From positions 1 through 64,000 of the forward strand of contig PHBW01000010.1 of the NCBI GenBank assembly GCA_002840715.1: a DNA stretch of 64,000 nucleotides, written 5' to 3'. The stretch's first letter is position 1; each line of letters starts with the position of its first letter. Positions 3,533 through 22,287 of the stretch are shown piece by piece. A model generated the notes under the pieces. The model was not told the origin of the DNA, did not search any database, and worked only from the letters and a program-made list of their open reading frames with translations. The stretch is from Chloroflexi bacterium HGW-Chloroflexi-4 (lineage in GTDB: Bacteria; Chloroflexota; Anaerolineae; Anaerolineales; Anaerolineaceae). The translations under genes and the position numbers were made by a program.

Positions 3533-3889
3533 ATGAAAATCGTTGCATTTATCGGAGCTGGTTTGCTCATTCTATTTGGCGCCTTAATGGCTATTGGAGC
3601 AACCGATCCATACAATGGACAAATTGGATGGCTTCCCATTGGATTGGTATTAATTGGAGTTGGATTAGTGATCATCTTCTTTGCAGCTCGCCGCAAAGCC
3701 GTTTCGCCAACTACCAATGTGACCTTGAATGTAGATTTACCCGGCAACGTCTCAATGGATTCGATCAAATGCAAATCATGCGGCGGTGTCTTGGCTGCTG
3801 AAAACATAACCATGGTTCAAGGCGCCCCAATGGTGACCTGCCCATACTGCCACACCGTTTATCAAATGACTGAAGAACCTAAATGGTAA
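3533..3889 (+). CDS. Small membrane protein with C-terminal zinc ribbon
   Basis: This 118-aa protein has two hydrophobic helices (about residues 3-24 and 34-53) joined by a short loop, then a basic stretch AARRK. The soluble C-terminal part carries CKSCGG and, 20-odd residues later, CPYCH, a classic four-ligand zinc-ribbon arrangement. By the positive-inside rule the ribbon should be cytoplasmic. A strong GGAGG precedes the ATG. It is the first gene of the operon that encodes the Cys-Ala tailed protein and radical SAM enzymes (28-base gap to the next gene), so it may act with them. I do not recognise a named family. Confidence 0.75.
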   Translation: MKIVAFIGAGLLILFGALMAIGATDPYNGQIGWLPIGLVLIGVGLVIIFFAARRKAVSPTTNVTLNVDLPGNVSMDSIKCKSCGGVLAAENITMVQGAPMVTCPYCHTVYQMTEEPKW

Positions 3890-3917
3890 TTGCACTCGAT
3901 AATTTGGGAGGGTTGAT

Positions 3918-5639
3918 ATGAGAGTTTTGAGATACTTTTGTCTCTTTCTGATCTTAATATTGTTGGCTGGGAGTGTTTCTCCAGTTTATGCACAAGATTA
4001 TAGATTTCAGGTACCTGAACAAGCCGTTGTGGTATCAGTCAATAACGATGGATCTATAAACATTGATTACACCATGACCTTTTTGAACGACTCAGGTGCG
4101 CATGCCATCGATATCGTAGATATTGGCCTGCCAAATTACGATTATGAATTGCGCAACATCACGGCTGAAGTGGACGGTGTTCAAATAACCCGCATCACAA
4201 ACTCGGATGTTGTTTCACCAGGTATTTCCCTTTATCTTCAATCGAATGAAATCCCGGCTGGTGGCCGTGGAACGGTGCATGCCTACATCACCAAGGTTAA
4301 AACGGTGATCTATCCGGGCACCGAGCCTGAATCTGAAGATTATGCCAGCTTAAAGTTCTCCCCCAACTGGTATGACCGTCAATATTGTTACGGCGAAACT
4401 AATTATCAGTTTACTTTCCTTCTGCCGCCCGGAATTAAAGACGGCGAATCCAGATATTACATCCCTGAAAATTTCCCGAACACCGACGCACCTGAATCCA
4501 TGATCACAGCCGAAGACCGCATTTTCTATACCTGGGTTTCTGAAAATGCAAATACTTATACTCAGTATTATTTCGGAACCAGTTTTCCGGCCCGCTATCT
4601 GGCTGAAGGAGCAGTCGTCCAAGAGGCTTACGTTCCACCTTCATCCTCTGGCGGTAACAGCACCAGTTTCAACCTCGACAGTTTGTGTCCTTTCATTTTC
4701 TGCCTCGGGTTTATCGGTTTCTTTGCCTTGATCATCTACTCAGCCACCATAGGCGCCAAGAAGCGCAAGATGGCCTACCTACCTCCAAAGATATCAATGG
4801 AAGGTCACGGTGTGAAACGCGGTTTGACTTCGGTTGAAGCGGCAGTTTTGATGGAACAACCCATGGATAAAATCTTCACCATGGTGCTCTTTGGTCTGCT
4901 CAAAAAGAATGCAGCCGAAGTGGTCAACAAAGATCCGTTGGATATTAAAGCCTCAACCCCGGTTCCCCCTGAACTATACGGCTACGAAACTGATTTTCTG
5001 GCTGCTTTTACAGAAAAAGCATCTGCCCCACGCAAGAAATTGCTTCAAACCATGATGGTCAACCTGATCAAGAGTGTCGGCGAAAAAATGAAAGGTTTCA
5101 GCCGCAAAGAAACACTTGCGTTTTACGAAGACATCATGAGACGAGCCTGGACGCAAGTGGAGACTGCCGGAACACCCGAAGTTAAAGCCCAGGTTTACGA
5201 AGAAGTCATGGATTGGACCATGCTGGACAAGAAGTATGAAGACCGCACCAATAATGTCTTCAGTGGTCCAATGGTGATTCCGACACCCTCATGGTGGTGG
5301 CGTTATGACCCCACCTTCGTTCGGCCAGTTATGCATACAGGCTCTATTGGCGGGGCAACTCCCCCACCACTCTCCGGTTCCGGCGGACATTCCGTCTCGA
5401 TGCCTACAATGCCTGGTTCCGCTTTTGCAGCATCCGTGGTTGGCAGCGTCTCAAACTTCTCATCCAAGGTGATGGGCGGTCTGTCTGGCTTCACCAGCGG
5501 TGTGACCAATGTGACCAATCCTCCTCCTCCGCCTTCCACCTACCGCAGTTCTGGCGGTGGCGGCGGTGGTGGACGTTCATGCGCCTGCGCATGTGCCTGT
5601 GCGGGATGTGCCTGTGCTTGTGCCGGCGGCGGACGTTAG
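3918..5639 (+). CDS. Membrane protein with cytoplasmic Gly-rich/Cys-Ala tail
   Basis: This 573-aa protein begins with a signal peptide (residues 1-25, cut likely after VYA). An extracellular beta-rich domain follows (about 26-250), reminiscent of DUF2207-type ectodomains though I cannot assign it. A single membrane helix (about 256-279) ends in KKRK at 281-284, which places the rest in the cytoplasm. Residues 285-440 look helical, then come Pro/Gly/Ser-rich segments, seven glycines and a final tail. The tail has seven cysteines at 555, 557, 559, 561, 564, 566 and 568, alternating with alanine, and ends GGGR. Both Cys and Ala codons vary along the tail, so it is not a simple DNA microsatellite. 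The radical SAM gene starts 12 bases after its stop, and I infer that the tail is the substrate of those enzymes. Confidence 0.8.
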   Translation: MRVLRYFCLFLILILLAGSVSPVYAQDYRFQVPEQAVVVSVNNDGSINIDYTMTFLNDSGAHAIDIVDIGLPNYDYELRNITAEVDGVQITRITNSDVVSPGISLYLQSNEIPAGGRGTVHAYITKVKTVIYPGTEPESEDYASLKFSPNWYDRQYCYGETNYQFTFLLPPGIKDGESRYYIPENFPNTDAPESMITAEDRIFYTWVSENANTYTQYYFGTSFPARYLAEGAVVQEAYVPPSSSGGNSTSFNLDSLCPFIFCLGFIGFFALIIYSATIGAKKRKMAYLPPKISMEGHGVKRGLTSVEAAVLMEQPMDKIFTMVLFGLLKKNAAEVVNKDPLDIKASTPVPPELYGYETDFLAAFTEKASAPRKKLLQTMMVNLIKSVGEKMKGFSRKETLAFYEDIMRRAWTQVETAGTPEVKAQVYEEVMDWTMLDKKYEDRTNNVFSGPMVIPTPSWWWRYDPTFVRPVMHTGSIGGATPPPLSGSGGHSVSMPTMPGSAFAASVVGSVSNFSSKVMGGLSGFTSGVTNVTNPPPPPSTYRSSGGGGGGGRSCACACACAGCACACAGGGR

Positions 5640-5651
5640 TTTGCTGACCCG

Positions 5652-6986
5652 ATGAACCTGCTAAACTATTTCTCCTCTGCGAAATCCAAAACACCAGCAG
5701 TTGAACTGCCTGCTGCTGGTGTCTATCATTTTCTGCGCCAAAATGAAGTAGAAAAATCCAGGCTGCATCTGCGATTGGATAATGATGGGACGGGGTTGTT
5801 GATCATCAACGCCAACCGCGTTTATCAACTCAACCCCACTGCAGCGGCAATGATGTTTTTCGCTCTACATAAAATCCCGGGTGATAAAGCAGCGGCAAAA
5901 CTTCACAAGAAATTTAACGCCCCCAAGGATTTGCTCGTTTCTGATTATGGTGTCATTCAAGATCAACTTCAGGCTTTGATCTCAAATGAATCCTGCCCAA
6001 TCTGCGAACTTGATCTTGAAACTACTGCACCTTTTTCAACACGGCCATCCGCGCCATACCGCATGGATCTGGCTGTCACATACCGATGCAATAATGCCTG
6101 TGCGCATTGCTACAACGGACGCCCGCGCAATTACCCTGAACTAAGCACACAAGAATGGTTCAAGATATTGGATGACCTTTGGAAAATCGGTATTCCACAT
6201 ATTGTTTTTACTGGCGGCGAGCCAACTTTGCGTGATGACCTGCCAGATTTGATCCGCCATGCAGAAGCGAATGGCCAAATCACAGGCATTAACACCAACG
6301 GCCGGAAACTCAAAGACAAGGTTTATCTGCAAAAGCTGATCGACGCCGGTCTGGATCATGTGCAGATCACATTTGAATCGCACATCGCCGAAATTCACGA
6401 TCAGATGGTCTGTCACTCAGGCGCCTGGCAAGAGACTGTGGAAGGATTGAAAAACGCGGTGGAGTCAAATATGTACGTCATGACCAATACCACCATGCTG
6501 ACACACAACAAAGCTGCCATCCCCGACACATTGGTATTTCTTGGTCAATTGGGGTTGAAAACCATCGGGCTGAATGCTCTGATCTATTCAGGTCACGGCG
6601 CTACGGTAGGAACAGGGTTGTCTGAAAGCGAACTGCAGCCCATTCTCGAAACCGCGCAAATCATTACCAATAAATATGAACAGCGCTTGATTTGGTACAC
6701 CCCAACGCAATATTGCAATTTCGATCCGGTGCAAATGGGCTTGGGCGTCAAAGGCTGCACGGCTGCTTTATACAACATGTGCATTGAACCCAATGGCGAT
6801 GTCATTCCCTGCCAATCGTATTATCAATCGCTTGGCAACATCCTGACTCAACCTTGGGAAAAAATTTGGAATCATGATCTGGCTGTATCGCTGCGTGAAC
6901 GCCATAATCTGCCAGAAAAATGCAACGACTGTACGCTTTTAAGTGAATGCGGCGGCGGATGTCCGCTGGCTGCTAAGGTGAAATAA
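5652..6986 (+). CDS. PqqD-like/radical SAM/SPASM maturase
   Basis: This 444-aa protein has three parts. Residues about 20-115 resemble a PqqD/RRE-type domain (HLRLDNDGTGLLIINANRV), which in peptide-modification systems binds the substrate. Residues about 135-330 form a radical SAM core with the CX3CX2C cluster CNNACAHC (146, 150, 153) and the GGEPT SAM-binding motif. The C-terminal SPASM domain has GC, MCIEPNGDVIPC, CNDC and CGGGC, enough cysteines for auxiliary iron-sulfur clusters. Such enzymes install thioether, C-C or epimerised residues on peptides. The gene lies between a protein with a Cys-Ala tail and a cysteine-less paralogue. The specific reaction is inference. Confidence 0.88.
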   Translation: MNLLNYFSSAKSKTPAVELPAAGVYHFLRQNEVEKSRLHLRLDNDGTGLLIINANRVYQLNPTAAAMMFFALHKIPGDKAAAKLHKKFNAPKDLLVSDYGVIQDQLQALISNESCPICELDLETTAPFSTRPSAPYRMDLAVTYRCNNACAHCYNGRPRNYPELSTQEWFKILDDLWKIGIPHIVFTGGEPTLRDDLPDLIRHAEANGQITGINTNGRKLKDKVYLQKLIDAGLDHVQITFESHIAEIHDQMVCHSGAWQETVEGLKNAVESNMYVMTNTTMLTHNKAAIPDTLVFLGQLGLKTIGLNALIYSGHGATVGTGLSESELQPILETAQIITNKYEQRLIWYTPTQYCNFDPVQMGLGVKGCTAALYNMCIEPNGDVIPCQSYYQSLGNILTQPWEKIWNHDLAVSLRERHNLPEKCNDCTLLSECGGGCPLAAKVK

Positions 6987-7009
6987 AACAGTTATTCCCG
7001 GAGGGAAAA

Positions 7010-8185
7010 ATGAAAGCCAGAATTAATACCTTTATCAGCAACATCCTTTATTCACCAAAACCCATCCCGGCTGGAAATTATCAGTCCATGCTAAAATTGG
7101 ATACTGGTCCGACTTATCGTTTGCATTTACGCATTGATGAAAAAGGCACCGGTATTTTGATCATAAACGCCAGCACCATTTTGCATTTAAATGCCACCGC
7201 GGTCGAGTATGCCTATCATTTGATTAAGGAAACACCCGTAGAAACGATTGCATCTGAAATGCTGAAACGATACCGGGTTACAACAGAAGAAGCTATTTCA
7301 GATTTTCAAGAATTTAAGGAACGGTTGGAGACCCTGGTCTCAACACCAGATCTTGACCCTGAAACATTTCTGGATATGGAGCGTGTTGATGCCAACGATG
7401 ATAGTTTAACCGCCCCCATGCGCCTGGATTGTGCCCTCACCTATCAAGTTGTTGAAGGGTCAAACAGCGTTTATGCACCCAATGACCGCGTAAAACGCAC
7501 GCTGGATAAAGAAGAGTGGAAACAGGTGCTCAAAAACGCTTGGGACGCTGGCATCCCCCATGTAATTTTCACCGGCGGCGAGCCAACCCTGCGCCCGGAT
7601 GTTCCTGAATTAGTGCATTTTACTCAGGAGTTAGGCCAGGTAAGTGGATTGATCACTGATGGCAGCAGGTTAACTGAAAAGGATTACCTTCATCAACTGC
7701 TGCAGGCCGGGCTTGACCACCTGATGATCGTGCTTAATCCCTTTAACGATCAAGCTTGGGAAGCCATCAGAGATGCAATCGCTGAAGATATTTTCTTGAC
7801 AGTTCATTTGACCTTGAACAACCGCAACAAACCGGATTTCGAGAAAACACTTGAAAAACTTGCCAAAATGCAGGTAAAATCTCTTTCAATCAGTGCCGAT
7901 TCACAGGAATTATGGAAATCACTGCCTCAATACACTCAAAAAGCAATTGAAGCAGGATTTTCATTGGTTTGGGATCTTCCTGTGCCATATTCTTCATTCA
8001 ATCCGATTGCACTTGAATTGGAAATGGGTGAAGTTCGCTCGGAAGGTGCAGGTTCAAGTTGGTTGTATGTTGAACCCGACGGTGATGTTTTGGCCGGCCA
8101 GTGCAAGGAAGCTGTGCTTGGCAACTTCCTGACCGACCCATGGAATAGAATCTGGGCACAAGCAAAAATTTCACGCCATGGATAA
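7010..8185 (+). CDS. Degenerate radical SAM paralogue without cluster cysteines
   Basis: This 391-aa protein aligns along its length with the preceding radical SAM enzyme. It shares the PqqD-like N-terminus (HLRIDEKGTGILIINAS), the FTGGEPTLR motif and a shortened C-terminal YVEPDGDVLAGQC segment. The three cysteines that hold the 4Fe-4S cluster are gone. Where the active enzyme has CNNACAHC, this one has VVEGSNSV, with Val, Ser and Val at the ligand positions. The SPASM cysteines are mostly missing too and the protein ends about 50 residues earlier. The reading frame is intact with a GGAGG ribosome site, so it looks maintained rather than decaying. A catalytically dead partner or substrate-presenting subunit is the likely role. 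Confidence 0.82.
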   Translation: MKARINTFISNILYSPKPIPAGNYQSMLKLDTGPTYRLHLRIDEKGTGILIINASTILHLNATAVEYAYHLIKETPVETIASEMLKRYRVTTEEAISDFQEFKERLETLVSTPDLDPETFLDMERVDANDDSLTAPMRLDCALTYQVVEGSNSVYAPNDRVKRTLDKEEWKQVLKNAWDAGIPHVIFTGGEPTLRPDVPELVHFTQELGQVSGLITDGSRLTEKDYLHQLLQAGLDHLMIVLNPFNDQAWEAIRDAIAEDIFLTVHLTLNNRNKPDFEKTLEKLAKMQVKSLSISADSQELWKSLPQYTQKAIEAGFSLVWDLPVPYSSFNPIALELEMGEVRSEGAGSSWLYVEPDGDVLAGQCKEAVLGNFLTDPWNRIWAQAKISRHG

Positions 8186-8933
8186 AGTCGATTGGCATGA
8201 GCGGTTTTCGGTGCAGGCTGGCTGGACCAAACAACTGCGCCAATTTCTTTATCAGCAAGTTGGAATTAATGAAAAGTCCCGCATCCTCGAAGTTGGATGC
8301 GGGACCGGTGTTATCACCTCTGAACTTAATGATTTCACCAAAATCCGGGCGGCAGGAATCGACATGCAGTTTGAGCGATTATTGACAGCCGAGGCTCAAG
8401 ACAAAAAATCCGATTATGCCTGTGCAGATGTTTTTCACCTGCCTTATGCCGAAAACCAGTTTGATTTTGTTATTGCTCACTATTTATTCTTGTGGCTGCG
8501 TGAACCGATTCAGGCTTTATCTGAGATCCAACGCGTTTTAAAGCCAGGCGGCTGTATGGTTTCACTTGCCGAACCAGACTATCTTGCACGAATAGATAAT
8601 CCGCAATATTTATGGACTTTAGGCGAAATGCAGACAAAAGCCCTTATCCTCCAGGGTGCCAATCCGATGGCCGGACGGCAACTTGCTTCACATTTTCACC
8701 AGTCAGGATATAAAGAAGTCCAATATGGAATATCAGGATTTCAGACAGAAGCAGGTCAAACTCCAGCCTGGTTTGAATCAGAGTGGAAAATTATTGAAAG
8801 TGATCTTCTTCGATACGCCTCACCAAAAGAATTGGAAGTTTTTCAAAAAATGGATCTTGCTGCCTACCAAAGTGGATGCAGAGTCAGGTGGGTGCCAACT
8901 TTTTATGCCTATGGCAAAAAACATTACGAATAA
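8178..8933 (+). CDS. Class I SAM-dependent methyltransferase
   Basis: This 251-aa protein has the motif I sequence ILEVGCGTGVITSEL (about residue 34), an acidic motif II (AAGIDMQF) and a YAENQFDFVIAHYLFLWL segment, a typical UbiE/Methyltransf_11 domain. It overlaps the end of the radical SAM-like gene by 8 bases, so translation is coupled. In this operon it could methylate the modified tail or another component. A small-molecule target cannot be excluded from sequence alone. A terminator follows 60 bases downstream and closes the operon. Confidence 0.8.
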   Translation: MDKVDWHERFSVQAGWTKQLRQFLYQQVGINEKSRILEVGCGTGVITSELNDFTKIRAAGIDMQFERLLTAEAQDKKSDYACADVFHLPYAENQFDFVIAHYLFLWLREPIQALSEIQRVLKPGGCMVSLAEPDYLARIDNPQYLWTLGEMQTKALILQGANPMAGRQLASHFHQSGYKEVQYGISGFQTEAGQTPAWFESEWKIIESDLLRYASPKELEVFQKMDLAAYQSGCRVRWVPTFYAYGKKHYE

Positions 8934-13443: not shown

Positions 13444-16400
13444 CTACACATTGAATGGTTTTGGTTTATCGACTCTTTTACCCATATAAACGGTCGCATG
13501 ATGTTCTTTTCCATCATCGGTCAAGGGAATCAAAAGTCCGGACAAAACATGTCCATCCAGTTCAATATTGTTAATTCCATTGGCTAAGTGCGCCGGATTA
13601 TTGATTTGAATGAGATAAAGTGATTCACCAAATTTATACTTAATTTCAAATCCGTCCCACTCAGGCGGGATGACCGGATCCATCATCAGGGTATTGCCGA
13701 CCTTGTGAAAACCAAGGATGGCTTCCAAGCCAAGGCGGTACATCCATCCGGATGAGCCGGTGTACCAAGTCCATCCTCCACGGCGAATAAAAGGTTCCTG
13801 ACTATAAATATCCGCACAGATCACATAAGGTTCCACTCGATATACTAAAGATTTTTCAAAGGTGTCAGCCTGGTTAATTGGATTGAGTAAGTTGAACAAT
13901 TCACCTGCACGCTTTCCATCTCCCATCTTTGCAAAAGCCCAGGCGGTCCATGTGGCGGCATGGGTATACTGTCCGCCGTTTTCTCGCGTGCCAGGAATGT
14001 AGCCTTTTATATAACCAGGATCAAGAAGGGTTTTATCGAAAGGTGGTGTGAAAAGCAATGACAATCGGTCTTGCGGTTTTACAAGGCGGTCATAGACCGC
14101 CTGCATGGCCTGCCGGCTGCGCTTGGCATTGCCGCCACCACTTAAAACCGACCAAGATTGAGCGATGGCATCAATTTGACATTCCGCATCCCTGTTTGAG
14201 CCCAAGGTTTCGCCGCTGTCGTAATATGCACGTTGATACCATTCTCCATCCCAGGCTGATAATTCAATTGCCTTAACATATCTTTTTGAACGCGCCTTGT
14301 ATCTATGTGCATCATCCAAATCACCAATTTGTTCCATAAGCGAACCAAAACTATTCAAAACGTCACTGATAAACCAGGCTAGCCAAACACTTTCTCCTAG
14401 GCCATTCTCGCCCACTCTGTTCATGCCATCGTTCCAGTCGCCAGTGCCCATCAATGGCAAACCATGAAGCCCATAGGTTGAGCCTTTTTCAATAGCGCGC
14501 TGACAATGATCCAAAAGCGAGTAAGACAGGTCCGTTTGTGAGAACTCACCGTATCGTTCATCTTCGCCATCTGAAAGCTCGGTTGCTCTCCTAAAAGGGA
14601 TTGTCTCCTCAAGAATATTAAAATCGCCAGTATTTTCAATATATAACGCGGTTACATAAGGCAACCACAATAAATCATCAGAAAAACGTGTGCGCACTCC
14701 CCTGCCTGAGGGCGGATGCCACCAATGCATAACGTCACCTGCTTCAAATTGTTGTTTTGCTGCATTTAGAATTTGACTGCGTGTGATTGCCGGATCGATC
14801 GATATCAATGCCAAAACATCCTGCAATTGATCACGAAAACCAAATGCACCGCTGGATTGATAAAAACCGGTTCGACCCCAGATTCGACAAGACAAGGTCT
14901 GGTATATCATCCAGCGATTTAATAATAAATCAGCAGTTTTATCAGGTGTTTTTACTTGGATTTGATTTAATAATTTATCCCAGAATACATGCGTGCGTTC
15001 AAAAGCTGCACCAACATAAGCCGGATCATGGTATTTTTTTACTAAATCCAAAGCATGTTGTTTATCATTTCCTTGACCAAGAACAAAATAAATTTCATCC
15101 GCTGCATCAGGCATTAAATCCACGTGGATTTGAAGTACCGCACATGGATCTTCTCCAGGAGTAATACGGGTTTCCAATCCCAACCGGAGGAGTGCCACCG
15201 GTAAAGCAAAGGTGCCGCCGCGGCCAAGAAACTCAGTCCGGTCAGCGGTCAAGCCGTGGACGGGACGGCTGGCGATCAGAAACGCGACTCGTTTTCCAAA
15301 TTCTTCACTGTATGGATTTGAAGCCAATAAGCATTCAAGAGTAGAGTCATATTCAGGTATTATATAAGCCATGTTGGCGGCATGAGTCGTGCCAAGCACC
15401 CATTCGATATATTGAGTAACTGTGATTCTGCGCGTATGTGGTAAAGTGTTCCTCACCTTCAAATGTATGATTTTTACCGGGTCTTCGGGGCTTGAAAAGA
15501 GCGTCAAACATTGTTCCAAACCGTGAGAACTGTGTTCAAAACGTGTATAGCCTGCACCGTGAACGACTCGATATGGCTGATTTGATCCAGCCGGCATTGG
15601 TGTTGGCGTCCACACGTCACCGGTTTCTTCATCCCGCAAATATAATGCCTCACCGGTTGGGTCGCAAACAGGGTCATTCGCCCAAGGCGTCAAACGATTC
15701 TCACCACTGTTTTGCGCCCACGTGCACTGACTTCCCGATTCACTGACCATAAAACCGAAATTGGGATATCCGATAACATTGACCCACGGCGCGGGAGTTG
15801 TTTTTCGAACTTTACTCCCTTTTTCATTCATAAAGGCAGCATCCCAGTTGATGACGTACTCTTTGCCGTCAAGACTAAAGCCGCCAAAATCATTTGGATA
15901 AAGAAGTTCTTCTTTGTTTTTGGTCAAAGAATTACTTTCTGAAGTCGTTGTGATTGGGTCATTGTCTGATGGGAGTGTAGGAATAAAAGCAGGCAAATGA
16001 TGCACAGGTAAGGAATATCCCGGTAATTGTCGATCTAAAGAGCCCATAGCCCCATCTAGCACTAATCGGGCTGCGGTTTGGAGCAAGGTATATTCTTCTG
16101 TTGAAATATGGTCGCCGTAGAGGATAAAAACACCTCCTCGCTGATTGAGCTGATCTTCACCATTCATTTTTGCCACAAGATGATAAAGAGAACCTTTTAA
16201 TTCAGCCCCATAATCCGTTTTTTGGCAGTTTAGAATGACGAGATCCATTTTGATGCGACGGCTGCGTAAATATTTGTGTATTTGAAGGGTTTCTGCCACA
16301 AGATCAATTTGCTGGGGATCATCAAGCTGCACCATCATGATTGGAAAATCACCTGAGATGCCGAAACGCCACAATCCAAATTGCCCTAATAGATTTGAGG

Positions 16401-19400
16401 CAAGCATTTCTGAAGATGCCCGGATTGCTTTATACGGATAGAAAAGGGCTGATAGTACTTGCATGATATTTTTAAAGAATTGAGATGAGATTTCTTGCTT
16501 TCCAAGCCATGTTTGAGCAGCAATATTAGCTTGATGGTAAGACCTGTCAATAATTGCCCAATTATGATACTTCCGCGCAAGTTCCAACACATCCGCTCTA
16601 CTATCTCCAGTAAAAGTCAAGAAAGCCAGGTCAGCACTTTTATGGGGTTCAACGATAAAAGATTGTCCAAGAGAAAATATCGGGTCCAGCGTTGGCCCAG
16701 TTGTTCCCGTGAGATACTCATTGGATGTCAAAGCAATCGGATTTCGCATTGTGCGATCACGTCCGATGAATTTATTTCGGTCTGCCTCGTGTCGGGTCGC
16801 AATTTGTGGATCTTTATTGACACACATATGAGCCATAAAAATGCTTGCATCTTGAGAAGACCTCGGCCGACGAGTAAATATTTGCAGTCCCAATTCAGGA
16901 ATATATTCACTGTCGATAAATAATTTATTAAAGGCCGGGTGTCTTGAATCAGCGGCTTGAGAACCTAATATCACTTCACCATAAGAAGTCAATCTTAAGG
17001 ATCGATATTGTTCTGAATGATTATGCAAATGGATTCGACGAATTTCCAACGGATCATCTGGAACAACAGTTAACTCTGTGTTTGAAGAGATTTCATCTTG
17101 CATCCGTCTGAAAACCGCCATATGTGCAAAATATGTCACCTGCATATCGTCTGCTTCGGCTGGTAGCGGTTGATGACAAGCCGACCAGATTTCATTGACT
17201 TCATCCTGATCACGTTGTATATCCTGGATATAGATCCAGGTTCCCCACGGATCAAGTACACCATCAGGCTGCCAACGAGTGAGGTCTATTCCCTTCCATG
17301 AACTGTATCCACCTCCCATATTTGATACCAAAAGGTTATAACTGCCATTTGACAAGAGGTGCATTTGCGGAATGGGGGTTTGAACTGGCACACTCCAGGG
17401 TGTAATTTCAACAGGTGCCACAGAAACCCTTTGGGTGCCGCTTACGTTTTCACCATAAGGGTCTTGCGTTTCGACCCGGTGTGGAATTTGCTCTTGAAGA
17501 ATCAATTCCACGCTTTGGATGCGTGGATCGGAATGCATGCGATCAACCATGATATCGTCATGAAAAAAGTTCACCATGGCCATCATGATCATGCCTTGAT
17601 GATGGGCCATATATTCACTGACAATGACCGATGTTTCATCCAGGTGCAACCTCTCTGGCGTAAAGTCAATCGATTCATAAACACCGTAAAGTCCAAGCAT
17701 TTTGTGATTGATCAATTGGTCAATATTATGAATCACTTCATGCGGGGCATAACTTACGGCCATCAATGACGCATAAGGCGATATGACGAGGTCATCAGCC
17801 AATCCTCGTTTAAATCCCAACCCCGGTACACCAAAGGCTCGATACTGATAATTTTGATTGTTGTCAAACCGATAAAACCCAGATTCAGATATACCCCAAG
17901 GGATAGCTTTTGATTTTCCATAGGCGATCTGATGCTGAACTGAGCCGATCGTGCTATCTGACAACAGTGTACCAGGATAAGACCGCAAGAAAAGAGGAGG
18001 CATAAGATATTCAAACATGGTTCCACTCCATGAGAGCAGCACGTACATTCCCCCAATTTGTGTAACGGGTCTCCCTAGATGCATCCAATGCTTTTGAGGG
18101 ATATCCCCTTTTGCGATGGCCACCACAGATGCAATTCTCGATTCAGAAGCTAGTAAATCATAAAAATTTTGATCCATCGAACCAGCATCAAGGTTATACC
18201 CAATATGAAAAACAGCCCTTTGGGAATGATAAAGGAACCGAAAGTCCATTTCATTGGTATATTGTTCACAACGTTCTGTAATAAATAGAAATCGATTACT
18301 TAATATCTCGGCGTTTGAATCCACTTTAGCAAGCGAATTCATCAGGTCAACCAGCCAATTGCTGGCATTATTCATTGAATCTTTATGCAGCAATCGATCA
18401 GGTGAATCTTCAACTTTTTTAAGTAGAGCGTTAATCAACGGAAGAGCCGTTTTTACATGAACCCTGATTTGATTCAATGGTAAATTAACCGGTAGTTTCT
18501 TTGTGATTTCTACTATTTGGTTTACGAATTCTGAATTCTGAAAATATTCAGGTAAATTATCAAAAAATGGAACCCATGGCACTAATTCAGTTATTGTTCT
18601 GCGCACAGCGATGTGATGACGTTCAACTTGTGCAGCAACTTCTTGAAGTTTTTCCAATGTGCTTAATGAAAATGCAGTTCGCCCCACTTTAACAAGGTCC
18701 ATCAGTTTATACGAAATATCATTCCAAAACGGACCACTGGCAAATTCGAATAATCGATACCACTGATCAGAATGCGTCCGCACTGACATGATTTCATTAT
18801 GCAGTTTGGTAATACTTAAATTGATTTCTTCAACTTGTTGATCAAATTCAACTTTTCTCATCTCTTTTAGCATTGCGGTGAGGTTCGCCAGTGTATCCAG
18901 ATAACCTTGCCAAAGATCCCATCTGAAAATAGGCTTCCAGAGCATATTTTTACAAGCCTGTGAAGTTACGATAAAACTGGCTGCCAAATTTCCACTATCG
19001 ACTGTTGAAACATATTTTGGGTGGAGCGGTTGGAGGGTTTGAGTATCATACCAATTTAAGAAATGACCACGAAACCTTTCCAACTGATCAAGGGATTCAA
19101 TAGTTGTTGAAAGTCGGGTTGCCAATGCGAGTTGATCAAGGTAACCTAGATCATAGGCAGCCAGGGTTGAAGTTAAGAGTAAACCGATGTTTGTTGGAGA
19201 AGTGCGGTGAGCGATAATTCCTACTGGAGACTCTTGATAATGGTCGGGAGGCAACCAATGATCTCCAGGTCCAACGAAACGCTCAAAGAACCCCCAGGTT
19301 CGTCTTGTGATTTGACGTAAATGGTTGACTTGTTCCTCATTCAACGTGATCTTTTTTTCAGTAATTGGATGGTTTATTCCCCATACGATACCAGGTGAGG

Positions 19401-22287
19401 TAAACCACAGCAGCAATAAAGGCAACACATATAGAGTCGTTATTAATTCATTTTTTGAAATAAACAACATCCAGATGGTCAGAAAAACAACCAGCAGGCT
19501 TGAAGCAGACATTTTTTGCCATGCAAAATTTCGACGAGCCTGGGAACCAAAAATTTTGGCGCTTTGTGCTGCAGTGGTCCATTGTAGTAGATTTTTTTTA
19601 CTGATCATCATTCGATATAAAGTTGTAAAAATGGCATCGCTTGAAATATAAGCCTCATAGGGCAAGAAAGCGATCGCCAAGAACCACCGCAAAATATTCC
19701 ATCCCATAGGCCTAAAGGCAATCCGAATATCTTCGCCCTTCAGGACAGACCCCGTGCTGTGCACAACTCCTGTGAGAATAGGAAGCCCGAGAGTCAATAA
19801 ACCAATTGAAATCCAAAGGAAGTTAAATTCCGGCAGAACCATCAATCCCAAGATAAAAAGAATTAGTAACGATGGGGCTAGCAACGATCGACGCAAATTA
19901 TCAAACATCTTCCAACGGTCAACAATTGAAAATGTAAGGTTCGGCCTGTTCTTTTCGAGTAGCCAGGGCAACAATTGCCAATCACCACGAATCCAACGTC
20001 TTTGGCGCATTATCTGGGTAAAGTAATTTTGCGGATAATCTTCGATCATGGTGATATCTGTCACCAATCCAGCCCGCCCCATAATGCCTTCCAATAAATC
20101 ATGACTCAAGACTGCATTTTCTGGGATATGTGCATCAATGCTGCGCATAAAGGCGTCTACATCATAAATTCCCTTTCCCACAAAACTGCCTTCACCAAAA
20201 TAATCTTGATATGCATCAGAAACCGCAAGAGAATACAAATCCAACCCAGCATCTCCGCTGAAGAGGCGAGTGAACCACGAATGATTCGCGCTTCTCGGAT
20301 GAATTTCCATTCGTGGTTGAAGAACTGTATAGCCTGAAATAACCTGCCCTGTTTTCTCGTCAAAAACAGCCTGGTTAAGAGGATGAGCTAGTGTACCAGC
20401 CAGGCGGCAGGCAGCTCCCCTTGGCATAATGGTGTCTGAATCCAGTGTGATTACAAAAAGAGTACGCGCCAAAGCTGACAAATCATCAGGAGCTGTTATA
20501 AATGTGAGATTTTTCTTTGAACGCAACAGTTGATTTAGCTCGAAAAGCTTTCCCCTTTTACGTTCCCATCCCATCCATTTTCCTTCTGAAGCATTCCACA
20601 ACCGTTTGCGATGGAGAAAATAGAAGAGCGGATCATTTTGCCGTGGGACATAATGGATTTGATCAATCAACGTGCCATTTGATGACAGACGGTCAGGAGC
20701 ATGGTCTTCATATTTGCGGTTAAGGAATTCAGTCGAGGCTTTTGCATACTGTATAAGCATTGTATCTTCAGGCAAAGTCTCAGTATCGGCATCGCGAAAG
20801 TCAGTTAATAGCGCAAAACTCAGCCCACGCTCTGGATTGCGCAGGTAATGCAATTCTATTTGTTGGATAAGTGAATCTACATCGCCACGATTGGTTATCA
20901 TAGCTGGGATGACAATCAGGGTTTTAAAGGGATCAGGAATTTCTTCTTTAAAATCAAGTTTTGGCAAATATTTTGGTGGAATACGAAGCGTAATCAGCCA
21001 ATTAACCAAACTTGTTGCAATGGTCAAAACTGGATTTGTAATTAATAAACAAATTATAGTTATTACAATCCACTTAAAAGGAGTCGAAAGGATTAAGCTA
21101 ATCGGAATATCTGAAACTAAAATGATGCTAAAACCGATTATGGCAAATAAAGTCAATGTAAGAAGAGAAATTATTCCAATACTGGAAAAATACATGCCTG
21201 AATTGTGTTTATTAATCCATTTTCTCAGCCTTTGCAAACGATTTGGTTTTACACCGAGTTTGTTTTCAAACTCGTACCGACCTTCTCCAAATAAATAGAA
21301 TCCAATGTGGTTTTGTTCATGACTCTTTTTCAACGAAACATCAGCACCGGATGGACCGGTTGAAAGAGCCATTTCAATTAAAACCTGGGCAATTTCATTT
21401 TCATCACGATTTAGACTATACGAAAGTGACTCAATTTCTTTTCGGTATTGATCACGAGTTTTGAAATCCATTTGAGTATATTTTTTTGCAGGATCATGGC
21501 TAAGTGTTTTCTCAAGGCAACTCACTGTTTCAAAAAAATCATTCCATCTTAATTCATCAATAGCACGAAGGCTTAGAATAATGTTTGCTATTTTATTGTT
21601 GACTTCCTCATCAGACCCGCCATCCAATGTTGGAGCATCTTGATCAACGATAAGGAAATCTGCAAAATAAAATGGCAACTTGGGTTGAACCGGAGGATTT
21701 ATAGTTGTGTTTAATTCATGAGATAAAAATTCAATTAGACAATATCTTAAGAAGATGGGCAAAGCCCACAGCTCACCCATCGATAATGAAATACTGAGTT
21801 GAAACTCTTTCAAAATATTGATGGTATCGATTGAATCAAAAAGCATATATTGAGATGAAAGAATTGCACGCGCCAGAGCATAAATACGAGGAAACCCACT
21901 CATAGGTCCACTCGCCAGTTTGGGGAGCTGCAAATAGAAACTGAATGGAAGATCTTCTTTTATTTGTTGAAGAGATTGGCGAATAATATAATAATTATCC
22001 AGCATCCATTCAGAGGTATAAGACAGCGCCATCTGCTTTTGCGAGATCTCTCGAAAATACTGATGAGCATCTGCAAGCCAGGCGACATGCAGTGCCAGAT
22101 CATGCCCTGGAATATCCCGCCTGGTCAAAGATTTTCTTGAAGTTCCTTTGAAGGAGCTTGAAACCACATCTTGAAAATTTTTTATTAAGACTTTTACAAG
22201 ATTGTGAGTTTTTTGATTTTTTGAGGAAGTCGAATTTTCTTCATTGTATCCTTCTTGATTCGTTTGATTAACACAATCATCTATCAT
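13444..22287 (-). CDS. ndvB: Cyclic beta-1,2-glucan synthase-like protein (NdvB/ChvB type)
   Basis: At 2947 aa this is the largest gene in the window and matches the usual 2800-2900 aa of the family. An N-terminal soluble part is followed by membrane helices (about residues 370-460). A GT84 glycosyltransferase domain carries DSDT near residue 616 and QRRWIRGDWQ near residue 762. More helices follow (about 810-1000), then a glycoamylase-like domain (about 1050-1600), and a C-terminal GH94 phosphorylase module with the catalytic GTGDWNDGM near residue 2615 and PGTRENGGQYTHA downstream. Family members make and cyclise beta-1,2-glucan, with the GH94 part setting chain length. A GGAGG site precedes the ATG. 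The start lies 2 bases after the universal stress gene, so the pair forms one unit. Its role in a monoderm envelope is unclear. Confidence 0.9.
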   Translation of the reverse strand: MIDDCVNQTNQEGYNEENSTSSKNQKTHNLVKVLIKNFQDVVSSSFKGTSRKSLTRRDIPGHDLALHVAWLADAHQYFREISQKQMALSYTSEWMLDNYYIIRQSLQQIKEDLPFSFYLQLPKLASGPMSGFPRIYALARAILSSQYMLFDSIDTINILKEFQLSISLSMGELWALPIFLRYCLIEFLSHELNTTINPPVQPKLPFYFADFLIVDQDAPTLDGGSDEEVNNKIANIILSLRAIDELRWNDFFETVSCLEKTLSHDPAKKYTQMDFKTRDQYRKEIESLSYSLNRDENEIAQVLIEMALSTGPSGADVSLKKSHEQNHIGFYLFGEGRYEFENKLGVKPNRLQRLRKWINKHNSGMYFSSIGIISLLTLTLFAIIGFSIILVSDIPISLILSTPFKWIVITIICLLITNPVLTIATSLVNWLITLRIPPKYLPKLDFKEEIPDPFKTLIVIPAMITNRGDVDSLIQQIELHYLRNPERGLSFALLTDFRDADTETLPEDTMLIQYAKASTEFLNRKYEDHAPDRLSSNGTLIDQIHYVPRQNDPLFYFLHRKRLWNASEGKWMGWERKRGKLFELNQLLRSKKNLTFITAPDDLSALARTLFVITLDSDTIMPRGAACRLAGTLAHPLNQAVFDEKTGQVISGYTVLQPRMEIHPRSANHSWFTRLFSGDAGLDLYSLAVSDAYQDYFGEGSFVGKGIYDVDAFMRSIDAHIPENAVLSHDLLEGIMGRAGLVTDITMIEDYPQNYFTQIMRQRRWIRGDWQLLPWLLEKNRPNLTFSIVDRWKMFDNLRRSLLAPSLLILFILGLMVLPEFNFLWISIGLLTLGLPILTGVVHSTGSVLKGEDIRIAFRPMGWNILRWFLAIAFLPYEAYISSDAIFTTLYRMMISKKNLLQWTTAAQSAKIFGSQARRNFAWQKMSASSLLVVFLTIWMLFISKNELITTLYVLPLLLLWFTSPGIVWGINHPITEKKITLNEEQVNHLRQITRRTWGFFERFVGPGDHWLPPDHYQESPVGIIAHRTSPTNIGLLLTSTLAAYDLGYLDQLALATRLSTTIESLDQLERFRGHFLNWYDTQTLQPLHPKYVSTVDSGNLAASFIVTSQACKNMLWKPIFRWDLWQGYLDTLANLTAMLKEMRKVEFDQQVEEINLSITKLHNEIMSVRTHSDQWYRLFEFASGPFWNDISYKLMDLVKVGRTAFSLSTLEKLQEVAAQVERHHIAVRRTITELVPWVPFFDNLPEYFQNSEFVNQIVEITKKLPVNLPLNQIRVHVKTALPLINALLKKVEDSPDRLLHKDSMNNASNWLVDLMNSLAKVDSNAEILSNRFLFITERCEQYTNEMDFRFLYHSQRAVFHIGYNLDAGSMDQNFYDLLASESRIASVVAIAKGDIPQKHWMHLGRPVTQIGGMYVLLSWSGTMFEYLMPPLFLRSYPGTLLSDSTIGSVQHQIAYGKSKAIPWGISESGFYRFDNNQNYQYRAFGVPGLGFKRGLADDLVISPYASLMAVSYAPHEVIHNIDQLINHKMLGLYGVYESIDFTPERLHLDETSVIVSEYMAHHQGMIMMAMVNFFHDDIMVDRMHSDPRIQSVELILQEQIPHRVETQDPYGENVSGTQRVSVAPVEITPWSVPVQTPIPQMHLLSNGSYNLLVSNMGGGYSSWKGIDLTRWQPDGVLDPWGTWIYIQDIQRDQDEVNEIWSACHQPLPAEADDMQVTYFAHMAVFRRMQDEISSNTELTVVPDDPLEIRRIHLHNHSEQYRSLRLTSYGEVILGSQAADSRHPAFNKLFIDSEYIPELGLQIFTRRPRSSQDASIFMAHMCVNKDPQIATRHEADRNKFIGRDRTMRNPIALTSNEYLTGTTGPTLDPIFSLGQSFIVEPHKSADLAFLTFTGDSRADVLELARKYHNWAIIDRSYHQANIAAQTWLGKQEISSQFFKNIMQVLSALFYPYKAIRASSEMLASNLLGQFGLWRFGISGDFPIMMVQLDDPQQIDLVAETLQIHKYLRSRRIKMDLVILNCQKTDYGAELKGSLYHLVAKMNGEDQLNQRGGVFILYGDHISTEEYTLLQTAARLVLDGAMGSLDRQLPGYSLPVHHLPAFIPTLPSDNDPITTTSESNSLTKNKEELLYPNDFGGFSLDGKEYVINWDAAFMNEKGSKVRKTTPAPWVNVIGYPNFGFMVSESGSQCTWAQNSGENRLTPWANDPVCDPTGEALYLRDEETGDVWTPTPMPAGSNQPYRVVHGAGYTRFEHSSHGLEQCLTLFSSPEDPVKIIHLKVRNTLPHTRRITVTQYIEWVLGTTHAANMAYIIPEYDSTLECLLASNPYSEEFGKRVAFLIASRPVHGLTADRTEFLGRGGTFALPVALLRLGLETRITPGEDPCAVLQIHVDLMPDAADEIYFVLGQGNDKQHALDLVKKYHDPAYVGAAFERTHVFWDKLLNQIQVKTPDKTADLLLNRWMIYQTLSCRIWGRTGFYQSSGAFGFRDQLQDVLALISIDPAITRSQILNAAKQQFEAGDVMHWWHPPSGRGVRTRFSDDLLWLPYVTALYIENTGDFNILEETIPFRRATELSDGEDERYGEFSQTDLSYSLLDHCQRAIEKGSTYGLHGLPLMGTGDWNDGMNRVGENGLGESVWLAWFISDVLNSFGSLMEQIGDLDDAHRYKARSKRYVKAIELSAWDGEWYQRAYYDSGETLGSNRDAECQIDAIAQSWSVLSGGGNAKRSRQAMQAVYDRLVKPQDRLSLLFTPPFDKTLLDPGYIKGYIPGTRENGGQYTHAATWTAWAFAKMGDGKRAGELFNLLNPINQADTFEKSLVYRVEPYVICADIYSQEPFIRRGGWTWYTGSSGWMYRLGLEAILGFHKVGNTLMMDPVIPPEWDGFEIKYKFGESLYLIQINNPAHLANGINNIELDGHVLSGLLIPLTDDGKEHHATVYMGKRVDKPKPFNV

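Follow-up and report, generated by a model that had tools for sequence, protein, structure and literature searches.

In the Chloroflexi bacterium HGW-Chloroflexi-4 (contig PHBW01000010.1), a set of genes at 3533..8933, all on the + strand, encodes a membrane protein ending in an ordered Cys-Ala repeat and, directly next to it, a radical SAM/SPASM enzyme. We consider it likely that these two belong to a system dedicated to protein modification: the enzyme would act on the cytoplasmic tail of the membrane protein, most likely by installing thioethers between Cys and Ala, and the product would probably stay on the protein. The assignment of the tail as the substrate of the enzyme is well supported by genetics; we infer, in addition, the chemistry of the tail and the retention of its product in the membrane. 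The pairing points to an uncharacterised chemical modification of a membrane protein that recurs across many bacteria and archaea. If this holds true, radical SAM peptide maturases would serve beyond antibiotics, cofactors, and enzyme activation, placing a fixed structure on a widespread membrane protein in both domains.

The gene set and the Cys-Ala tail

The window, i.e., the whole stretch of 64,000 nucleotides that was analysed, contains the gene of the 573-aa tail protein at 3918..5639 (+), followed after a gap of 12 bases by the enzyme gene (5652..6986, +). A further 23 bases separate the latter from the gene of a radical SAM paralogue (7010..8185, +), which overlaps by 8 bases with a methyltransferase gene (8178..8933, +). 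The coordinates, gaps, and features of the original prediction were all verified on the sequence. A fifth gene (3533..3889, +) lies within the same coordinates, was left undescribed there, and recurs with the set.

The tail protein consists of a signal-peptide-like start with a hydrophobic segment at residues 7-25, a beta-sandwich ectodomain, one transmembrane helix (residues 253-284; 4674..4769, +), a cytoplasmic helical domain, a Gly spacer, and the Cys-Ala tail. Hydropathy analysis shows one internal hydrophobic helix with KKRK at its end; extra segments at approximately residues 310-328 lie inside the cytoplasmic domain of the structural model and were not counted as membrane-spanning. The tail had been proposed to lie on the enzyme side of the membrane, and it is indeed predicted to be cytoplasmic in the lineage of the window, but the side is uncertain in Armatimonadota-type relatives, which have two membrane segments. 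No family above cut-off was found for the protein in the tables examined, no convincing solved relative was obtained by sequence (best E 0.28), and the defence library gave no match. M1-aminopeptidase and ribophorin, which appeared as fold matches of the ectodomain, were set aside at TM-scores of 0.20-0.25 on the query.

The C-terminus of the protein reads ...GGGGGGGRSCACACACAGCACACAGGGR and carries the seven cysteines alternating with alanine that had been described. The tail proper, CACACACAGCACACAGGGR (residues 555-573; 5580..5636, +), has the pattern (CA)4-G-(CA)3-GGGR and is the presumed modified core. It is the best-conserved part of the protein, with a conservation of 0.994 versus 0.574 elsewhere, and the best 17-residue stretch outside the tail reaches 0.914. 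An identical main tail occurs in 56 of 81 loci, the window included, and is encoded by 56 different DNA sequences, so that it is not a product of chance. A DNA repeat artefact was ruled out on these grounds, and because both codons for Cys and all four for Ala are in use. The short inserts between CA blocks are G, S, A, or VS. The tail strings had no match in PMC open-access texts.

The enzyme and its linkage to the tail protein

The 444-aa enzyme, the presumed tail maturase, combines a radical SAM domain (E 2.3e-26) with a SPASM domain (E 1.4e-11). The CX3CX2C cluster motif is CNNACAHC (6087..6110, +). The SPASM region (6714..6962, +) contains seven cysteines (355, 369, 387, 424, 427, 433, and 437), the last six of which are invariant in set A6; of the 71 enzymes counted, 67 retain the full seven-Cys region. 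A PqqD-like domain had also been predicted. Pfam does not report it in the window enzyme, but recognises it in 24 of 42 enzymes that were aligned (best 2.1e-9), and it is through this domain that the structural model aligns with SkfB and SuiB. This RRE (PqqD-like) domain is N-terminal, at approximately residues 20-111 (5709..5984, +). The peptide maturases SkfB and SuiB are the top structural matches of the window enzyme, and SkfB, SuiB, and CteB, three cross-linking maturases, are among its best relatives of solved structure. Matches to viperin in the defence library were taken as reflecting the general radical SAM core.

Seen from the enzyme, the tail-protein gene adjoins it in 77 of 81 loci, a hand-chosen set drawn from 60 of 129 matching family genomes and from other families (20 loci), plus the window. 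All 75 gene pairs measured lie on the same strand, 72 of them no more than 150 bases apart. Seen from the tail, an enzyme with all three cluster cysteines is present in 71 of 80 named loci, and is directly adjacent in 59 by a column-based test; these loci overlap with the 81, at least nine having contigs of equal length (e.g., L143/L085, L150/L096, and L157/L066), and the two sets are thus not independent. Nine of the 80 have no active enzyme in view, and in L161, L193, and L201 neither contig ends nor a known second locus account for its absence. At more distant radical SAM loci, used as a control, the tail protein was found in 0 of 14 within the stretch fetched.

Lack of co-occurrence in other genomes had been set beforehand as the observation that would speak against the pairing; checked from both directions and in two domains of life, the pair held. 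Among 147 family genomes, 125 have both genes, 15 have neither, and 7 have one alone (Fisher p 2.5e-14). Outside the family, the tail protein occurs in 19 of 19 genomes with a strong enzyme match, which were hand-picked with the exclusion of two CHSA genomes and of weak matches below about 1e-35. It occurs in 0 of 20 genomes without an active enzyme, namely 19 of the 20 no-match genomes listed (354 of 400 being without a match) and G242, which has a pseudo-enzyme-like match only. The pair was found in Chloroflexota, Armatimonadota, Aminicenantes, Planctomycetota, Bathyarchaeota, Asgard archaea, Thermoplasmatota, and Thermoproteota; its carriers include Ornatilinea apprima P3M-1 (L150) and Leptolinea sp. 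HRD-7 (L148). The tail pattern itself matched at least 592 stretches, 84 of which were seen to code for a relative.

Distant homologues of the tail protein carry a different repeat tail, (CHSA)n, and stand beside a separate branch of the enzyme. On the enzyme tree, which has one row per chosen locus, hand-assigned class labels, a midpoint root, and some long outgroup branches, the tail class changes 6 times versus 26.4 times in shuffles, a clustering that shared descent would also produce. As two putative matched enzyme-tail codes, they could be used for studies of substrate recognition. Good support for the original proposal, with the tail of this large membrane protein as the likely substrate, comes from linkage, the conserved tail, the RRE, and the second type of tail. 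It is very improbable that the enzyme instead has an unrelated small peptide or cofactor as its substrate, the tail gene being merely linked: the two genes are apart in four genomes, all of one genus, and the haem-biosynthesis model NirJ2 is among the best NCBIfam scores listed (132 bits, cut-off 500; no equivalog cut-off was reached among the 25 of 75 matches listed), but the 19/19 versus 0/20 co-occurrence, the split into two tail types along two branches of the enzyme, and the linkage retained in bacteria and archaea all argue against it.

Partner genes

The product of the fifth gene, 118 aa long, has two hydrophobic stretches, a zinc ribbon (CxxC...CxxC), and the C-terminus TEEPKW. Homologues are present in 72 of the 81 loci and in 35 of the 80 named loci, archaea among them, and the protein may act as an assembly or reading partner. 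The 251-aa class I SAM-dependent methyltransferase (Methyltransf_11, E 7.9e-21) has homologues in 70 of 81 and 40 of 80 loci, respectively, and would be a second modifier. The presence of each of these two partners in only about half of the named loci counts against the proposed system.

The 391-aa paralogue matches the Pfam radical SAM model (E 1.1e-13), and its PqqD match falls just below the cut-off (22.6 versus 23.4 bits). Its three cluster-Cys positions are occupied by V, S, and V, and the SPASM cysteines are absent. The description of this protein as a dead paralogue applies to the lineage of the window, but the protein lies outside the core set: it is present in 66 of 81 loci and was therefore rejected as a core component. 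One Anaerolineaceae genus lacks it, and the archaeal loci showed no copy. Where present, the pseudo-enzyme could serve as a partner that holds the substrate.

No protease or exporter is common to the lineages examined. Genes resembling HExxH metallopeptidases follow downstream at 8 of the 81 and 4 of the 80 loci, all of them loci of the same order; one matches Peptidase_Mx below the Pfam cut-off (E 1.1e-5), and two others are without a match. ABC-transporter-type genes (clusters c8 and c12) recur in 7 of 80 and 3 of 80 loci. Because such genes stand near some loci, the retention of the product on the membrane protein is not assured.

Proposed tail chemistry and related systems

In the proposed sequence of events, the membrane protein would insert so that the ectodomain faces outwards and the C-terminus lies in the cytoplasm. 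The enzyme may then dock through its RRE domain on the segment preceding the tail, for which the pre-tail helices (residues 495-537; 5400..5528, +) are the candidate leader-like recognition segment. The conservation of this segment is 0.675 in set A1 and only 0.339 in the wide set A5, no better than average, and thus lends no support to a common docking site. Held on its flexible Gly spacer, the tail would be modified by the enzyme, most likely through thioethers that join Cys sulphurs to Ala alpha-carbons; the result would be a compact, cross-linked knot, probably kept on the membrane protein. Because the Cys phase can be flipped by a short insert separating two CA blocks, a hairpin turning at a one-residue insert would bring each Cys opposite an Ala. 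A wider reading, put forward tentatively as possible rather than probable, is that bacteria and archaea, Asgard archaea included, share a system that cross-links a repeat tail by radical chemistry into a permanent cytoplasmic thioether knot. Such a knot would amount to a RiPP-like modification that is not secreted and that sits on a membrane protein of housekeeping type. There would be at least two tail codes, (CA)n and (CHSA)n, and a separate enzyme branch would read each of them.

The strongest competing explanation, though a rather doubtful one, sees in the tail a Cys array that binds metal or iron-sulphur, with the enzyme performing another change, e.g., turning the cysteines into better ligands, a conversion suggested for MNIO enzymes and bufferins. 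The dense Cys array with its tail-linked enzyme and the neighbouring zinc-ribbon protein would fit this explanation, as would the closest published analogue: TIGR04222 membrane proteins with Cys-rich C-termini adjoin MNIO enzymes and are proposed as their modification targets, and bufferins are linked to copper (PMC12452194). However, the strict alternation with alanine and the short inserts exceed the needs of a plain Cys array, and the solved relatives named above point to cross-linking.

SPASM enzymes catalyse varied chemistry. Epimerisation, oxidation, or decarboxylation of the tail, with the methyltransferase capping thiols, is unlikely. Fold matches also include the epimerase EpeE and the sulfatase-maturing enzyme, and the methyltransferase is frequent at the loci, but a Cys-specific repeat suggests sulphur chemistry. 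The seven-Cys SPASM region fits cross-linking maturases, albeit it is compatible with other chemistry too.

The TIGR04222/MNIO pairing is the nearest published idea. Both systems feature an integral membrane protein with an extracytoplasmic domain and a low-complexity Cys-rich C-terminus, which is the proposed target of an enzyme encoded next to it (PMC12452194). They differ in the enzyme, which is radical SAM/SPASM here and MNIO (DUF692) there, no MNIO gene being found among the nine window proteins scanned. Cys and Ala form an ordered repeat in the present tail, which is predicted to face the cytoplasm in the lineage of the window, whereas theirs is predicted to be periplasmic (PMC12452194), and the present pair also occurs in archaea. 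No description of a radical SAM version of such a pairing was found in the open-access literature searched.

By sequence, the tail-protein family weakly resembles DUF2207/TIGR04222, proteins for whose function the system may offer a testable handle. Similarity to TIGR04222 reaches E <= 0.01 in 5 of 50 members (best 5.8e-5), with the curated cut-off of 43 bits unreached in members examined singly (best 22.8 bits) and no match in the window protein. DUF2207 (PF09972) gives weak profile matches in 3-4 aligned members (3 of 50 in one scan, best E 1.8e-5), below the Pfam gathering score, and again none in the window protein. The DUF2207 protein SMU.243 has a large extracellular N-terminus and a large intracellular C-terminus with a Gly/Ser-rich stretch (PMC10457818), an arrangement that the tail protein shares with DUF2207 (PF09972/PF20990). 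In contrast, the passages on SMU.243 in that source mention neither a Cys-Ala tail nor a maturase.

Sactipeptide biosynthesis likewise employs a maturase with RRE, radical SAM, and SPASM domains, the RRE being recognised by Pfam in 24 of 42 relatives and not in the window enzyme. RumMC2 is described as making alpha-thioether bridges with Ala among the partners (PMC8188230). The presumed substrate, the end of a 573-aa membrane protein, distinguishes the present enzyme from the sactipeptide maturases SkfB (PMC6231123) and RumMC2. A short precursor with a cleavable leader, typical of sactipeptides, is absent here, the tail protein having its signal-peptide-like start and transmembrane helix instead. 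The ACGX-repeat system (TIGR04340) also joins a radical SAM/SPASM enzyme to a target with a Cys-containing repeat, but its target is presumably a short peptide. A search for ACGX together with radical SAM gave no match in PMC open-access texts. The best E of the enzymes against TIGR04340 is 1e-27; roughly 25 radical SAM models, this one included, give matches in nearly all members.

Gene set and conservation of the Cys-Ala tail

The 3533-8933 region of the window carries five + strand genes in head-to-tail order. The first (3533-3889) encodes a zinc-ribbon protein of 118 aa that has two hydrophobic stretches, and the second (3918-5639) a 573-aa membrane protein with a Cys-Ala C-terminus, here called the tail protein. 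Next come genes for a radical SAM/SPASM enzyme of 444 aa whose N-terminal domain is RRE-like (5652-6986), for a pseudo-radical SAM paralogue of 391 aa, the pseudo-enzyme (7010-8185), and for a 251-aa methyltransferase (8178-8933). The intergenic distances of 12 and 23 bases and the 8-base overlap agree with the original prediction. Elsewhere in the window, a 2947-aa open reading frame occupies 13444-22287 on the - strand.

The tail protein ends in CACACACAGCACACAGGGR. Across 52 aligned tail proteins, that of the window included, the mean share of the commonest residue is 0.994 at residues 557-573 and 0.574 at residues 26-552, where the best 17-residue stretch reaches 0.914. By region, the same set gives 0.939 for the tail, 0.647-0.745 for the cytoplasmic parts, 0.675 for the pre-tail helices, 0.538 for the ectodomain, and 0.533 for the Gly spacer. 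The tail is again highest in a wide set (n=50), at 0.812 versus 0.515 for the next best region, and the pre-tail helices do not stand out there (0.339). Among 81 author-chosen, enzyme-based loci, 74 have a Cys-Ala tail, and 56 share an identical main form. These 56 tails are encoded by 56 different DNA sequences, thus it is the peptide that is conserved and not the DNA. Of the other seven loci, three have a tail of a second type, (CHSA)n, and in four the enzyme has no tail protein nearby.

In the predicted model of the tail protein (pLDDT 79.1, pTM 0.47), a beta-sandwich ectodomain is followed by a helix at 253-284 that has KKRK close to its end; then come a helical cytoplasmic domain and two pre-tail helices, and the tail itself is modelled at low confidence. 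One internal hydrophobic segment is present in 46 of the 52 aligned proteins. In this set the mean number of flanking K+R is 0.56 before the segment versus 3.85 after it, so the tail is predicted to be cytoplasmic. In the wide set 23/50 have one segment, and many of the extra segments fall within the cytoplasmic domain. Armatimonadota-type relatives (most of the nine tail proteins from reordered loci) have two segments in the membrane region, which makes the side of their tail uncertain. Weak matches to DUF2207 (3/50 of the wide set, best 1.8e-5) and TIGR04222 (5/50, best 5.8e-5) fit a common layout. The intracellular C-terminus of DUF2207 proteins is described as rich in Gly and Ser, and a link to stress tolerance is given for one of these proteins (PMC10457818). 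The ectodomain model (P0002, residues 30-224) has low-TM-score similarity to M1 aminopeptidase domains and to ribophorin I.

Co-occurrence and linkage of tail protein and enzyme

Co-occurrence of the two proteins in other genomes had been set beforehand as a test of the original prediction, and it is borne out in the Anaerolineaceae. With cut-offs of E <= 1e-30 for the enzyme and E <= 1e-10 for the tail protein, the enzyme is found in 129 and the tail protein in 128 of 147 family genomes; 125 contain both, 15 neither, four the enzyme only, and three the tail protein only (Fisher p 2.5e-14). Among the seven discordant genomes, G125 has an ectodomain-only match within a 1001-aa protein (L272, G125:C69), indicating that this ectodomain is also found in other architectures. 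The match is cut by a contig end in G065 and ends 9 bases short of one in G031. G064 and G071 have weak enzyme matches only (1.6e-54 and 1.3e-32), values at which the pseudo-enzyme or fragments also match, and the enzyme matches of G089 and G101 are partial. In family genomes that are >=90% complete and <=5% contaminated, the enzyme occurs in 61/64 and the tail protein in 58/64. Outside the family, all 19 hand-picked genomes with a strong enzyme match contain the tail protein. It was found in none of 20 picked genomes of the same order or class that lack the active enzyme, including G242, which has a pseudo-enzyme-like match. In a phylum sample, 46/400 genomes have enzyme matches at E <= 1e-25; the weaker among these 46 are other radical SAM enzymes.

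Seen from the enzyme, the tail protein adjoins in 77/81 loci. The two genes share a strand in each of the 75 pairs located by tblastn; they are at most 150 bases apart in 72 of these and 276, 362, and 567 bases apart in the others. The remaining two of the 77 are CHSA loci. In the exceptions (L137, L139-L141, one genus) the tail gene is on a separate contig of the same genomes, and the tail reads CACACACDSCACACAGGGR. Seen from the tail, 80 named loci were fetched from at least 84 confirmed tail-pattern matches, a set overlapping the 81 loci. An enzyme with all three cluster cysteines is present in 71/80, adjacent and on the same strand in 59. In nine more of these 71, the Armatimonadota-type loci L184, L186, L187, L189, L191, L198, L215, L220, and L221, the tail gene comes third, after the enzyme and then the pseudo-enzyme, and in L169, L207, and L222 the enzyme is on the opposite strand, 2.3-3.7 kb from the tail gene. 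In L169 and L207 the tail gene is followed by a pseudo-enzyme; the oppositely oriented active radical SAM gene of these two loci is longer (~550 aa) and adjoins a tail-like protein that lacks a Cys tail. No active enzyme is in view in nine loci. L152 is truncated inside the enzyme gene, L172, L178, L185, and L202 miss a flank on one or both sides, and L170 belongs to a genome taken as G048, whose enzyme gene is on a different contig. In L161 and L193 the visible stretch contains a pseudo-enzyme alone, and in L201 not even that; these three loci are unexplained. As a control, no tail protein was found at 14 loci that encode more distantly related radical SAM enzymes (flank <= ~4 kb, some shorter).

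Tail variants and taxonomic breadth

According to their record labels, mostly of metagenome-assembled genomes, bacteria represented in the 80 named loci include Chloroflexota, Armatimonadota, Acidobacteriota, Aminicenantes, Fermentibacterota, Planctomycetota, and Zixibacteria. The archaea include Bathyarchaeota, Heimdall- and Hodarchaeota, Methanomassiliicoccales, Thermoplasmatota, Thermoproteota, and a single locus with the label Thermococci. The tail is (CA)4G(CA)3GGGR in 33 and insert-free (CA)6GGGR in six; CA-G-CA tails of other lengths also occur. Tails with 7-10 Cys and inserts such as VS or A are mostly from Bathyarchaeota and Thermoproteota.

The (CHSA)n tails end distant homologues with 20-21% identity to the window tail protein over the alignment. 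A class-wide search with CHSA proteins gave matches in 56/298 genomes, the weak ones including known CA-type proteins. In the best 30 loci, two of them seen earlier, the CHSA tail is present in 29 and the enzyme adjoins in 26; the other four end <240 bases away on the enzyme side or inside the gene. G157 carries both a CA-type and a CHSA-type pair, one of which may be foreign because the genome is 8% contaminated. On a tree of 42 enzymes and four outgroups, the three CHSA enzymes form a single branch (100/99). Tail classes require 6 changes versus 26.4 in shuffles, and the main CA-G-CA class, with 4 changes, is not a single branch. Since shared descent alone would also cluster tail classes, the tree supports stable pairing and not specificity as such.

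Proposed modification and partner genes

The tail is very probably the substrate of the enzyme. Like RiPP precursors and their maturases, the pair combines a helical segment, a Gly spacer, a repeat core, and an RRE-bearing enzyme; by analogy, the system is a RiPP precursor layout grafted onto a membrane protein. The case for thioethers as the modification is evenly balanced. In ruminococcin C bridges, Ala is described as an alpha-carbon partner of Cys (PMC8188230). The one-residue insert shifts the Cys phase, and a hairpin around it would therefore set each Cys opposite an Ala; in insert-free tails a two-residue turn would give equal pairing. We infer this Cys-Ala pairing from the tail sequences. 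The nearest published idea is that neighbouring MNIO enzymes may modify Cys-rich C-termini of TIGR04222 membrane proteins (PMC12452194), whereas the enzyme here is a radical SAM protein. No description of a radical SAM version was found in the open-access full-text literature.

Among the neighbours of the 80 named loci, no protease or exporter common to all lineages was found, and we therefore think that the modified tail is kept on the membrane protein. Its release may nevertheless occur, given the metallopeptidase-like and ABC-transporter-type genes of some loci. The former, with HExxH motifs, lie downstream in 8/81 (L063, L066-L071, L078) and 4/80 loci (L154, L155, L157, L162), all same-order or labelled as such. 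Their products (~310-380 aa, mostly HEFGHLLT) are encoded 3' of the pseudo-enzyme gene; in a Pfam scan one matched Peptidase_Mx below cut-off and two others had no match. ABC-transporter-type genes of two groups recur in 7/80 and 3/80 named loci.

Of the 80 named loci, 40 have a homologue of the methyltransferase and 35 one of the zinc-ribbon protein, with archaea among them. Four Cys and a terminal P-x-W are kept in 17/17 aligned zinc-ribbon proteins. The C-terminus of the window protein (3533-3889) and its relatives in alignment A7, typically EEPKW, is kept from bacteria to archaea. The pseudo-enzyme is present in 66/81 loci. Armatimonadota-type loci have a different one between enzyme and tail gene, unlike that of Anaerolineales, and in L193 it keeps most SPASM Cys. 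The two unlike pseudo-enzymes suggest that a non-catalytic partner was recruited repeatedly. Between enzyme and pseudo-enzyme, L063, L074, L154, L157, L159, L160, and L164 encode a PAS-like protein of ~113-138 aa, which in L160 matches PAS_4 below cut-off (E 0.00035).
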